Under the pieces are notes generated by a model. The model did not search any database and was not told where the DNA came from. It was given only the letters and a program-made list of their open reading frames with translations. The position numbers and the translations under genes are program-made. This document shows positions 26,420 to 51,466 of a stretch of 64,000 nucleotides of DNA, in pieces. Position 1 is the first letter of the stretch; the number at the start of each line of letters is the position of its first letter. Location of the stretch: the NCBI GenBank assembly GCA_963930775.1, contig OZ005689.1, positions 6,363,569 to 6,427,568 of the forward strand, given 5' to 3'. The DNA is from Cliona cf. orientalis (lineage: Eukaryota; Porifera; Demospongiae; Clionaida; Clionaidae).

Positions 26420-29400
26420 TCACTGACTAAGAAGTTCTTCTAAATTTTTCCGGTATGTCCCTTGTCTAAACCTAAAGCTTGCTGAGAGCACATCATCCAC
26501 CAGGTAGTCAAGATAGTGTCCCTGGATGAGCTTCTTTCCCTGGTAGCCTGGGTTCATGGCCACCCAGCAAAACTGATCCTCCTTCTCTTCTCTCTCCATG
26601 AAGTGCCACACCGGCTTCCTCATCACGGCAACTGGCTCCATCTCAGGAAGTAGCAGGAGTCGTCTCAACTCATCGATTTCAACTCGATCTTGGAAAAACT
26701 GACCTATAGTGCATATGGAGAGATATAATAAGCAGCGTTGGAAATGTTAATGCACTCTCGTATATTTGCATCCATTATTATAAAGGGGGAAAATTTGTAG
26801 CATTTAGATAAAAATTAATTTTAGCCAATTAGTGCCTTGATCATTCCCTGTCACATTCCAGTATTCCTATGTTAGCTACATAGTAATGTCAACAAGTAAG
26901 GAAAGATACGAGGGGCTAAATATTAATAATTAAATCTTTGTTGGTGTCATTATCATCGTTAATTAAGTTTATACTTACCAATTATTCCGTGGGAGTCTTT
27001 TGGCTGTTTCCTGACTTTATTCCAGACCATATCAATGTGCTCCTTGACAAATCTGACCGTAAATGCAATCCCGACATCCTCAAGGTCCACCTCCACTTGA
27101 GGATGAACAGCTTTTTTAACGGTAGGGTCTGACTCAGTCACTGTCAATTTTCCTTTGGCAAACGTCAGTTTCTTGACACTCTGTGCTCTAAGGCTGACTC
27201 TATCATCTACATAGACCATCTTGTTCGAAGCTTCGAATCTGATTTTTGATGTTGTATTTGCCTTTTTGCTCCTCACGACCATTCCCAGGGATCCGATCCA
27301 TGTCACTTCCGATCTTCGACTGTCGGGAATGAACTTGGCGTTCATGTGTATGATTTTGTTGCTGATGAGGTTGAAGACAAAGCCATGTTCTCCCTGGACA
27401 GAGAAGCAGAGGAGTTGTCCGTTTGGTAGCAGGATGCTGAAATGTGGATCGCCACCCAGTCCCATTCCGGTGTCAGGAGATGGTGTGGGAGAAACCACAA
27501 TCACTATATATTAATTAAAGGAGATACATCAACACAGTGACAGAGATGATGTGGTATAACCTATATCACTGTAGGCAGGCAGGAGCATATTATGAGCTAC
27601 TAAAAAATTTAATGGAAATGTAAGAGATTATACCACGGCAGCTCATAATATACTCCTGATACCGGTATGAGCTAGCCTCATTCCCAGGCTCTCCCTCTTC
27701 TTTTCTCACTTTTTCATGCCAAGGACCCATCCTTATTAGGCTGACTGACATTGAGTACGCCATCAATTCATGTGTGAATGGAATTTTAATTGATCTAATT
27801 ATGTTTTAGTTGTACTGGTACTCACTGGTTCTGTCGACGGGAAGGTCAGTGACGGAGGGAGTGACAGCTGGAGGGAGAATTAAATTCCATATGTCAAGTG
27901 CAGTTACCACAGGAATCATCAACACAATAATAGCTAATTATGCTTTCTCCAAGTTACTGTATGGTACTGTGCTTTGCAGGTCAGTTGTCTATAGGAAAGT
28001 TAGGGAATGGCACCTGTCCCTGTCACTATAATATAAACTGAAAGCCTTTGTGACGTGTAGTATAACTGGATGAATCAAACACTTGAGAGCCACTGCCTAT
28101 TTGGACAACTGACCTGCAAAGCACACCATTAGCATTGTAAACTCACTTGGTGAAGGATTTGGCTGGGCAATGGAAGTAGTCGTGGGAACTGAAGTGAATG
28201 AAAAAAAAGGAAGGGATAAAAATTAAGTAACAGTATGTAATAGCGAGATACATAACAATCTGAAACAATTTCTGACATAATTCTAGCAAAATTTGATAAC
28301 TATTAAGGAAGTCCAGCCACTAGTACTGATATTAAGTAGAGTATCAGTCGATCAATTTCATACAATATATACCTTCGACTTGTAACATGAATGAGATCAT
28401 TCCCGTTCCAACAGCGTTTGATGCCTGGACAGTGTAAGTACCAGAATCAAGCTGGGTCACCATTTGGATGCGTATGAAATTCACACCAAGCTCTATCCCA
28501 CTGATGACTGGTAGGGACAGTCCATTGAAGAACCAGACAAAATTTTGTGGGAAGGGATTGGCGTCTAGGTCCAGCTCAAGGTCAAAGGTCTCTCCTTGTG
28601 TAACATTAAGGACAGTAGAACTGATGTTGTATTCAGGAATATCTGTAAGAGTAGGAAATTGAATACACTGAGATCAGGCAAATTAAGTAGCTATGAAAAA
28701 TCAGGAATCAACTCCAAATATTGCTAAACTCATGCGCAGGTTTTCAGACCCGCTAGCTAGCTAGTTTAGGTTAACAGCCTGGGGAAACCTATGTTTGATA
28801 TCAACGGCTTTTCGAGAAATTTAGTGTAGCGTGTGCTCGCAACTAACTTAAAGAATGACACATTAGCTTACAGTAAACGTCGATGACAAAGGAAGCATTT
28901 CCACTTCCTGCGTCATTGAAGGAGGTGACTGTGTAATTTCCGCTAGCTTCTCTTCGAATATCGTTGCCAAAGTCCAAGAAATTCACTCCAACGTCCACTC
29001 CAGGTAGTTGGAGATTAATCGGTTGACCGTTGAATGTCCAATCAAACATTCCAATGCCTGGAATGGGATTTGCCTCCAATCCCAAGTCCACTCGGAATGG
29101 GAATCCTTCTGTGGGAGTGAAACGCTCATCCACTGTGTAGGTAGGTGCATCTGAAACAGTTTTGATGGTAACCACAACGTTAAGTTTTGCTGATAAGTAT
29201 AGGTATGTAGCAGCTTATTCTACAGCTGAGAATCATTCCTAGATTATTTTGTGTAATATGATAGCTACCCTAGTATTATGCATTAATTTACTAAAGTTGG
29301 AATATTATTAATCTGTATGTGAGGCAGTTTATAGGAAGAGAATCCAAAAAAGAAGCTCCCTACCAAAAAACAACGAAAAAGCAAATCAGAGCCATATCTC

Positions 29401-49600: not shown

Positions 49601-51466
49601 GCCCCTATTAAGCAAATGCCATCCACTGGAGTGGCTTCTGCAAACCAGAAGCCCTAGTCTTTAATTGCTGCATACGTACAACGTGATGCTATACTTACTT
49701 GGGGGAGGTGGGGCACAAAAGGCTGGATCAGGGCTCTGCATGTGGTGACCAAATTTAGTTGACAATAATATGATTAATAAATGCAATAAAAGCTAATGAT
49801 ATTCACAGAGCAGCCCTTACAGAGTAAGTTGACTTACCAAGTCAAGTCCCCTTAGCGCTGCATGAACGGTGGTAAACACTTCAGTGATAGCAAACCTATG
49901 AATAATAATAATTAGCTTGTAAGTTGACCTCTCATGAAGCAGGTGTAGGTAGCCTCAGAAATGCATGTTAGCTACATGCAACGTTGAAAGCTGGGAGAGC
50001 TTTGAATGAGGCTATATTATTATATTTAACTTCTAAATTAACATGTAGCGTAACTTCTTTCCTGCCATTTCTCTATTATGAGACAGTTAGATTATGTCTT
50101 TGCCAATGACCTTTATGGACATACCCACTTCCTACATCGGCACCCCCTTCCCCCCAATTCATGATGGGTTCCTACTCATCACTCGAGCTCTTCTATTATT
50201 ATGCACAGGATAAAGGGGTTCAAATTCGAAGGGAAGCTCAAGCCTATCGATTTAGCGAGTGATACAGGTATATAAATCACAATGCATCAGTTCTTTGTCA
50301 TTAATTTTATAGCACTCACCATAGAGTTACGTTTGCATTGGATGGATTTCCAGGAACCTGCCAAGTGACGTCAACAACTGTCTTGTCACTGGCATCATTG
50401 TGAGTGGCTGAATCCTATTGCAAATAAAAGATAATATCATAGGAATAAGACGGCTAAGTATGTGCATACACTCAATGATGATAATATTGGATGCCGTACA
50501 CACCTATGAGAAGAGTGTGTGCACCTTCTTACTCGTCTGTGACTCATTTGAGTGGTAAAATTGCATGACAGTAATAATTATTACCCCGCCCCCTAGTACC
50601 CTGCCATTCACTTATTGGCATGCGTTGATCTGCATGGGGTGGTCCCCGGGCCCCCAGGGCGTAAAGTAATTATTGTTGAGCACAATCTTACAGCACCACA
50701 GCTCCAAATCCGCCAGTTGGCCCCCGGGGGAGGATTGACAAATTCACCAACAAAGTCAGCAGCGGAAGAGAATGATGGAGTCGACTCTCGAGCTTGGATG
50801 GCAAATCCACGAAATGTTTGAGCACTACTTTCTATCCGGACTGCAAATAAAATACATGATGTTGATCAGTATCACCTCAAATACTAATAAAAATGCCGGG
50901 AGATGCATCACTGATAGGCTAGGTACGTGCTGATCCTGTTCATTTAATTCATGTGAGTGAATACACGAGGTGAGCATTATCACTCCTGGACCAGTCTTAA
51001 TCGCTCAAACTACCTCAGTCTAAGGAGACATGGTAGAGTTTGTTTATGCCCATGCATAATAAAAAAGTAATCACCGCTGACAATCAAGTGAGAATTCGAT
51101 CCTGATGCCACAGATTTTAAAATGTAAGAGCATAATACAAGCTATGTTTAGTTACCATGCGATTTCAATCTTTTTAGGTTCCCCTTTGACTAACAGATCT
51201 AGATCTAGAATCATTATTACCCCATACTCACTTGTATGCTGTGATCCACATCTGTACATATTAGGTGAAATCGGTGGAGCACCATCTACCGCCACCAAGC
51301 TCACGGAGTAAGGACAGGGAGGTCCACAGGCAACAGGTGTGACTCCAGAATGCTGCTGCGTTAAAGTAGTACAAGCCGTTGTTGGAGCGCCACTAGAAAA
51401 TGCCAAAGCATCTCTGATCAAACAAACAGCAGCCAAACTAAGGAGAGCCACGCAATGAAACTTCAT
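43699..51466 (-). CDS. Gene 7: secreted Reeler / Calx-beta / mucin / ITIH_C protein
   Basis: Fourteen exons: 51232-51466, 50692-50840, 50320-50414, 49838-49895, 49699-49735, 47861-48064, 47171-47416, 46689-46838, 46207-46422, 45754-45909, 45303-45530, 44140-44949, 43699-43964 make thirteen coding pieces listed here; I count 13 in total. They sum to 2850 nt (949 aa) with matching phases. Signal peptide MKFHCVALLSLAAVCL is followed by a Reeler domain (about 23-185: FSSGAPTTAC, FRGFAIQAR, DVTWQVPG). A CAPPPP hinge leads to three Calx-beta domains (192-591), a Thr/Pro-rich linker (592-697) and ITIH_C (about 698-949) starting GGDPHFSIVLPTKQLLCFSL. Joining the Reeler part to the rest rests on the phase match at 49699/48064 and the lack of another signal-peptide exon. 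The five Reeler exons differ from the others in using phases 0 and 2. They could be a separate gene. Confidence 0.75.
44650..44949. repeat. mucin-like coding minisatellite in gene 7
   Basis: Imperfect repeats of the unit TTTAAPTTT(S/T)E(A/P) encode a Thr/Pro/Ala linker of about 100 residues directly upstream of the GGDPHF motif. Such a linker would be densely O-glycosylated in an animal secretory pathway, which is inference. Confidence 0.85.
48065..49698. other. large gene 7 intron between Reeler and Calx-beta parts
   Basis: No in-phase signal-peptide exon was found here on the minus strand. The stretch holds one tRNA-like sequence (49381-49455) and otherwise no recognised feature. Confidence 0.5.
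49381..49455 (-). tRNA. tRNA-like sequence, pseudogene or SINE head
   Basis: On the minus strand it has an A-box-like TGGCCGAGTTG (49432-49442), a stem-loop TTTGGACTCTTGATCCAAA in anticodon position and a B-box-like GGGTTCCAGTC (49390-49400). The ends do not form a good acceptor stem, so it is probably not a working tRNA. Confidence 0.35.

Follow-up and report, generated by a model that had tools for sequence, protein, structure and literature searches.

Three tandemly arranged genes of the demosponge Cliona cf. orientalis (genes 5, 6 and 7) end in a common C-terminal module that opens with the motif GGDPHF and that, judged by its profile similarities, is a divergent relative of the C-terminal domain of inter-alpha-inhibitor heavy chains (ITI_HC_C, PF06668), below the formal cut-off of that family. 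The genes are read from the minus strand of the stretch of DNA referred to here as the window, which spans 64,000 nucleotides of contig OZ005689.1 (positions 6,363,569 to 6,427,568; assembly GCA_963930775.1). Across the genome, the module follows three unrelated kinds of protein arm, namely Calx-beta, CAP and NIDO, and is best read as an exchangeable tail. Its Asp-Pro bond is probably cleaved, and the chances are about even that the tail removes itself in this way, leaving an arm that is freed or loosely held. A first-pass annotation of the window had proposed a glycan-ester cross-linking system built on released Calx-beta arms, an interpretation that, taken as a whole, is partly supported.

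The GGDPHF motif is encoded at 27439-27456 in gene 5, 40055-40072 in gene 6 and 44609-44626 in gene 7, and the corresponding Asp codons (27448-27450, 40064-40066 and 44618-44620) are identical to those given in the first-pass annotation. A degenerate DNA pattern for GGDPHF, allowing at most one mismatch, occurs three times in the 64-kb window, at the sites of genes 5, 6 and 7, and was never found in 100 shuffles. The translations also bear out, in all three genes, that GGDPHF is followed by a shared series of motifs: CFS(V/L)QGEHGFVFNLI, SHG(I/L)IGQFF and CW...GHYL(D/N)Y. Each module consists of two exons separated by a phase-1 GT-AG intron, which falls between SHG(I/L)IG and QFF. In gene 5, exon 1 (26979..27456, from GGDPHF to SHGIIG) and exon 2 (26420..26703, from QFF through CW...GHYLDY to the stop) are spliced into a module of 253 residues. 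The equivalent exons, the second again running to the stop, lie at 39592..40072 and 39167..39408 in gene 6 (240 residues) and at 44140..44626 and 43699..43964 in gene 7 (250 residues), all on the minus strand.

In Pfam, the three window modules all match ITI_HC_C best, with 18.1 bits for gene 5 (E-value 0.0022; profile positions 17-187 of 189), 16.5 bits for gene 6 (0.0066) and 15.9 bits for gene 7 (0.0099), against a curated cut-off of 27 bits. Of the 27 modules extracted from the genome, 16 were aligned, and 13 of these match ITI_HC_C at E <= 1, down to an E-value of 1.7e-5; the best match is that of locus L056 (25.0 bits; profile positions 12-185 of 189). When seven members were tabulated one by one, five matched (13.8 to 25.0 bits) and two, L010 and L058, did not. 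The von Willebrand D (VWD) family (PF00094) was not called at E <= 1 in the Pfam scans of the modules, ITI_HC_C being called instead. The identification of the tails as ITIH_C domains thus holds as a similarity that extends along the profile, and falls short in that the three C-termini all miss the cut-off; the comparison with PF06668 did return a match for each of them, each one weak. A PDB sequence search with one member gave no match, and the module profile retrieved only one chance match (E 0.26).

Heavy chains carry DPHF at the start of their C-terminal domain. The sponge proteins share with them this DPHF start, a C-terminal pro-domain of about 240 residues, a flexible linker before the Asp and a weak ITI_HC_C match; they differ in scoring below the curated cut-off and in their arms, which are Calx-beta/Reeler/Ig, CAP or NIDO and not VIT plus VWA. 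N-acetylgalactosamine is reported to be linked as an ester to the C termini of heavy chains 1 and 2 of inter-alpha-inhibitor, which lose pro-domains 239 and 244 residues long (PMC7170535). The genome does contain VIT and VWA domains (10 and 29 matches, respectively, some of them paired on C5, C15 and C17), and genome searches were read exon by exon, scoring the best candidates only. None of these matches lies in the window, and the nearest one on the contig of a module is about 0.68 Mb away, in agreement with the first-pass view that the VIT and VWA domains of the classical family are missing beside these arms.

A protein query against the genome gave 56 exon-level matches, 27 of which correspond to exon 1 of the module. 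These 27 modules, three in the window and 24 extracted elsewhere, look like a near complete set because a second, divergent query (L056) recovered the same 27 exon-1 places, together with weaker matches. Three of the 27 are damaged. Left out of the count are partial matches at C5:7327255 and C14:4559551, as well as weak matches to the L056 query, including C12:94991 and several on C19. Asp-Pro-His-Phe is kept in 26 of the 27 modules, the remaining one, L058, having Asn-Pro instead (NPHF). Situated on C10 at about 5155237, L058 combines Asn before Pro with a CAP arm and an otherwise open frame, and is a candidate for a naturally non-cleavable form. The exon split between (S)xG(I/V/L)(I/V)G and QFF is found in 25 of the 27 modules; the end of exon 1 is unreadable in L015 and L057, and L025 contains a stop. 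Among the 16 aligned members, 28 columns are invariant, including the Pro, His and Phe of DPHF, and the Asp is present in 15; the module has two invariant cysteines, both located after Asp-Pro. At L050/L021 (C17, about 5473621), a duplicated module start, SFMCGSDPHFAI, stands just upstream of a full module. Pattern searches for relatives in prokaryote and viral contigs gave 40 and 61 matches, none of which was confirmed, and none of the publications listed by a literature search conducted largely without subscription journals deals with ITIH or this module in sponges.

The arms fall into three classes. Upstream DNA was available for 22 of the 24 loci outside the window, and at E <= 0.001 every one of the 22 shows a single arm class: Calx-beta at three loci, CAP at nine and NIDO at ten. 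The CAP and NIDO profiles were derived from three and two of these same loci, and the Calx-beta profile from the window domains; Pfam itself, applied to the upstream reading frames, confirms two NIDO and three CAP loci, which are the five behind the profiles. Including the window, the arm is known for 25 of the 27 modules (six Calx-beta, nine CAP, ten NIDO), L027 and L057 having arms outside the survey. In the tree, the six Calx-beta modules form a single clade (support 99/98), and 12 rows, including L027 and L057, form a NIDO clade (100/99); the CAP modules make up the remaining branches, among which L056 and L058 sit on long branches of unsure placement. The CAP and NIDO arms rule out a module restricted to Calx-beta proteins. 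The first-pass annotation tied the system to Calx-beta arms, which is correct for genes 5, 6 and 7, but the same tail is commoner on CAP and NIDO arms.

Among the window neighbours, exon 1 of the module shows a saturated synonymous divergence (dS), beyond correction, and a nonsynonymous divergence (dN) of 0.24-0.33, and in a trio of modules on C19 (1137939-1162632) the same exon gives a dS of at least 2.2 and a dN of 0.38-0.46. In exon 2, dS is 0.36-0.79 and dN 0.08-0.15 in the window, and dS is 0.29-0.58 in the C19 trio. On these substitution rates, the module is both old and constrained. Exon 2 is therefore far more alike than exon 1 among neighbours in both clusters (window 26420-44149 and C19 trio), for which local gene conversion confined to exon 2 is the simplest reading and a likely one.

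In its first half, the module appears to resemble a VWD domain. Ordinary VWD domains occur in the same genome (14 exon-level matches, at places other than the modules), and the six that were fetched all contain GDPH. When hhalign aligned the profile of the 16 modules to that of the six domains, GDPH fell on GDPH and GLIGQFF on GLLGYFN, with a score of 25.5 over 139 columns (P 0.0063). Control alignments scored 11.6 with Calx-beta and 12.7 with reversed VWD, and none of 100 column-shuffled controls aligned over more than 113 columns. The module runs some 75-90 residues past the VWD-aligned part, a region into which two of the ITI_HC_C matches extend. As in the GDPH-containing VWD domains of FCGBP, MUC2, MUC4, RGMB and SUSD2, GDPH is followed about 150 residues on by GL(L/I)G(Y/Q)(F), and the alignment with the six domains of the same genome, though of low probability, is in register; unlike these domains, the Calx-beta group lacks a Cys just before the cut, and the module has an additional C-terminal part with CW...G(Y)xDY.

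It is this resemblance to domains with a self-cutting GDPH that makes cleavage of the Asp-Pro bond of the module likely. A 2024 paper describes how the GDPH of VWD domains is cut autocatalytically between Asp and Pro; it also notes that ITIH3, ITIH5 and ITIH6 have a predicted VWD-like domain in which GDPH lies between strands one and two (PMC10880436). In the sponge proteins, the bond would break after folding in the secretory pathway, probably because the side chain of the Asp attacks the backbone carbonyl of the same residue; the arm would then end in an activated Asp. A review mentions that GDPH cleavage yields a reactive anhydride capable of forming esters or amides (PMC9354016). Since cysteine is lacking immediately before the cut in the Calx-beta arms, and both invariant cysteines come after it, the arm would be freed or loosely held, and not disulfide-kept. 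At 3 or 4 residues ahead of the Asp, a Cys occurs in none of the six Calx-beta members, window genes included, as compared with five of nine CAP members and all 12 of the NIDO clade; a disulfide that keeps arm and tail together is thus least expected in members such as the window genes. Their linkers, counted from the start of the module exon up to and including the Asp, are 18 (gene 5), 35 (gene 6) and 110 (gene 7) residues long and consist of Ser, Thr, Pro and Gly to 61-69%, and no cysteine was found in the linker exons before the Asp. The linker of gene 6 (40073..40170, minus strand; 69% Ser/Thr/Pro/Gly) and the mucin-like Thr/Pro/Ala linker of gene 7 (44627..44949, minus strand; 67%) have exon starts taken from a crude splice model. 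Less surely, the activated Asp would be trapped in one of two ways: by water, so that a mature arm is simply released, or by a chondroitin-type chain, one of whose hydroxyls would form an ester with it as in inter-alpha-inhibitor. In both cases, secreted proteins of the Calx-beta, CAP and NIDO classes would carry the module as a tail that can be exchanged and that removes itself.

Several results weigh against this proposal. All 16 members scanned stay below the curated ITI_HC_C cut-off, three of them have no match at E <= 1, and a whole-genome family search with PF06668 returned no candidate, although its control was silent too. An AlphaFold model of exon 1 with the three window sequences was unusable (predicted local distance difference test, pLDDT, of 42) and leaves the fold unsupported. 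The hhalign probability of the VWD alignment was only 6%, and one of the 100 shuffled controls scored higher (27.0). By eye, the Gly/Thr-rich linkers of genes 5-7 offer no first strand before GDPH of the kind seen in VWD domains, and the geometry of cleavage may consequently differ. Moreover, cleavage of SUSD2 is reported to require both GDPH and inter-fragment disulfides and to be lowered by a serine protease inhibitor (PMC6696261), a finding unfavourable to a site that simply cuts itself next to a linker devoid of cysteine, and a caution against taking autocatalysis for granted in every case.

We weighed the possible fates of the bond as alternatives whose probabilities sum to one: an arm freed or loosely held, the glycan ester being included here, an arm cleaved and firmly held, and no cleavage. 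That DPHF would be kept as a structural core, the module being a stable C-terminal adhesion domain, is unlikely but carries appreciable weight. It fits the Asn-Pro of L058 in its otherwise open frame, and Pro, His and Phe are each found in 16 of 16 members compared with 15 of 16 for the Asp, which is therefore not conserved above its neighbours; the Asp is nevertheless kept in all modules of the genome except L058, and cleavage is reported for VWD domains that share the motif (PMC10880436). Hydrolysis of the bond with the two halves remaining firmly joined, the cut serving to stabilise the domain or to set it for secretion, has precedents in FCGBP and SUSD2, in which a disulfide is reported to still hold the halves after hydrolysis of GDPH (PMC10880436, PMC6696261). 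The VWD-like first half of the module and the Cys placed 3 or 4 residues before the Asp throughout the NIDO clade and in over half of the CAP members speak for such an outcome. MUC4 is a NIDO-VWD protein, and the NIDO arms at ten loci recall this type of architecture. We nevertheless hold this fate to be improbable, given that no Calx-beta member has such a Cys, that both invariant cysteines lie beyond the cut and that the module extends past the VWD-aligned part, into a region that two of the ITI_HC_C matches reach.

Within the preferred reading, that of an arm freed or loosely held, the first-pass annotation favoured the outcome known from heavy chains, in which a chondroitin-type hydroxyl receives the new C-terminal Asp of the arm. 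Calx-beta arms, and perhaps CAP and NIDO arms, would then be mounted covalently on glycans and the tail discarded. The kinship to ITI_HC_C, a module of 240-253 residues next to heavy-chain pro-domains of 239 and 244, the cysteine-free Ser/Thr/Pro/Gly-rich linkers of genes 5, 6 and 7 and the position of the invariant cysteines after the cut are all consistent with it. The genome also has 26 exon-level matches to CHGN (chondroitin synthase type), nine with E < 1e-55 and the best at 9.8e-112, and two partial matches to the C-terminal part of xylosyltransferase, 1.6 kb apart in one stretch; these permit a chondroitin-type acceptor, but chondroitin-type enzymes have many other uses. The CHGN matches are clustered at C11 7.22-7.26 Mb, 9.33-9.38 Mb and other places, an apparent expansion. 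TSG-6, which transfers heavy chains to hyaluronan, has a link domain, and a link domain was not found in the genome in a search that had no working control. DPHF by itself does not imply glycan coupling, because the GDPH of VWD domains is hydrolysed and the halves of FCGBP and SUSD2 stay disulfide-joined. Coupling of the arm through an Asp ester is, on balance, doubtful.

The arms of genes 5, 6 and 7 were assigned by running Pfam on pieces assembled by eye from the reading frames; their exon edges are approximate, as the crude splice model joined all three genes into one. In gene 5, the Calx-beta arm (30783..37738; Calx-beta 3.3e-57, five stretches) is separated from the tail by immunoglobulin-type domains (28370..30614; Ig_3 1.6e-17 in two stretches, I-set 1.4e-14). 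Gene 6 has a Calx-beta arm at 40674..43098 (1.9e-28, two stretches), and no signal peptide was found in it. Gene 7 begins with a signal peptide, recognised by eye, and a Reeler domain (50320..51466; Reeler 2.4e-12), followed by a Calx-beta arm at 45303..48064 (2e-27, two stretches). All of these features are on the minus strand. Positions 242-25300 of the same strand hold additional reading frames in tandem, whose Calx-beta-like repeats are weak; two of the four pieces tested match at E <= 0.01 and three at E <= 0.1, all below cut-off. Transmembrane segments are visible by eye within this region, near 18085-18573 and 5970-6281 (minus strand), and these frames possibly encode membrane-bound partners of the secreted genes 5-7. 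Reading frames that by eye resemble pieces of long interspersed element (LINE)-type endonuclease and reverse transcriptase lie at 11644-14756 (minus), 33820-34440 (minus) and 52691-53752 (plus).

Secreted Calx-beta proteins encoded in a tandem gene cluster, with a Calx-beta array present, recall the aggregation factors of sponges. Published accounts give these factors a combination of Calx-beta, VWD and Wreath domains. Aggregation factors are described as the extracellular proteoglycans of sponge cell adhesion (PMC6820919, PMC8380372).

A heavy-chain-type tail that occurs apart from VIT-VWA, on at least three classes of cargo, would point to a tail that does not depend on what it carries. In its boldest form, which we regard as a long shot, the module would be a general self-cutting tag that hangs unrelated secreted proteins on chondroitin-type chains by a C-terminal Asp ester in an early-branching animal. 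The vertebrate heavy chains, with their VIT-VWA cargo, would then be one user of an older, cargo-independent device, and the cysteine-free Calx-beta branch would build a cross-linked adhesion matrix. Beyond inter-alpha-inhibitor and its hyaluronan transfer in vertebrates, no protein-glycan ester of this type is known to us. Should only the cleavage prove true, the Asp-Pro chemistries of ITI_HC_C and VWD domains would be connected in a single genome that holds both. Should the ester form as well, sponge adhesion proteins would have a concrete route by which they could be covalently fixed to their acidic glycans.

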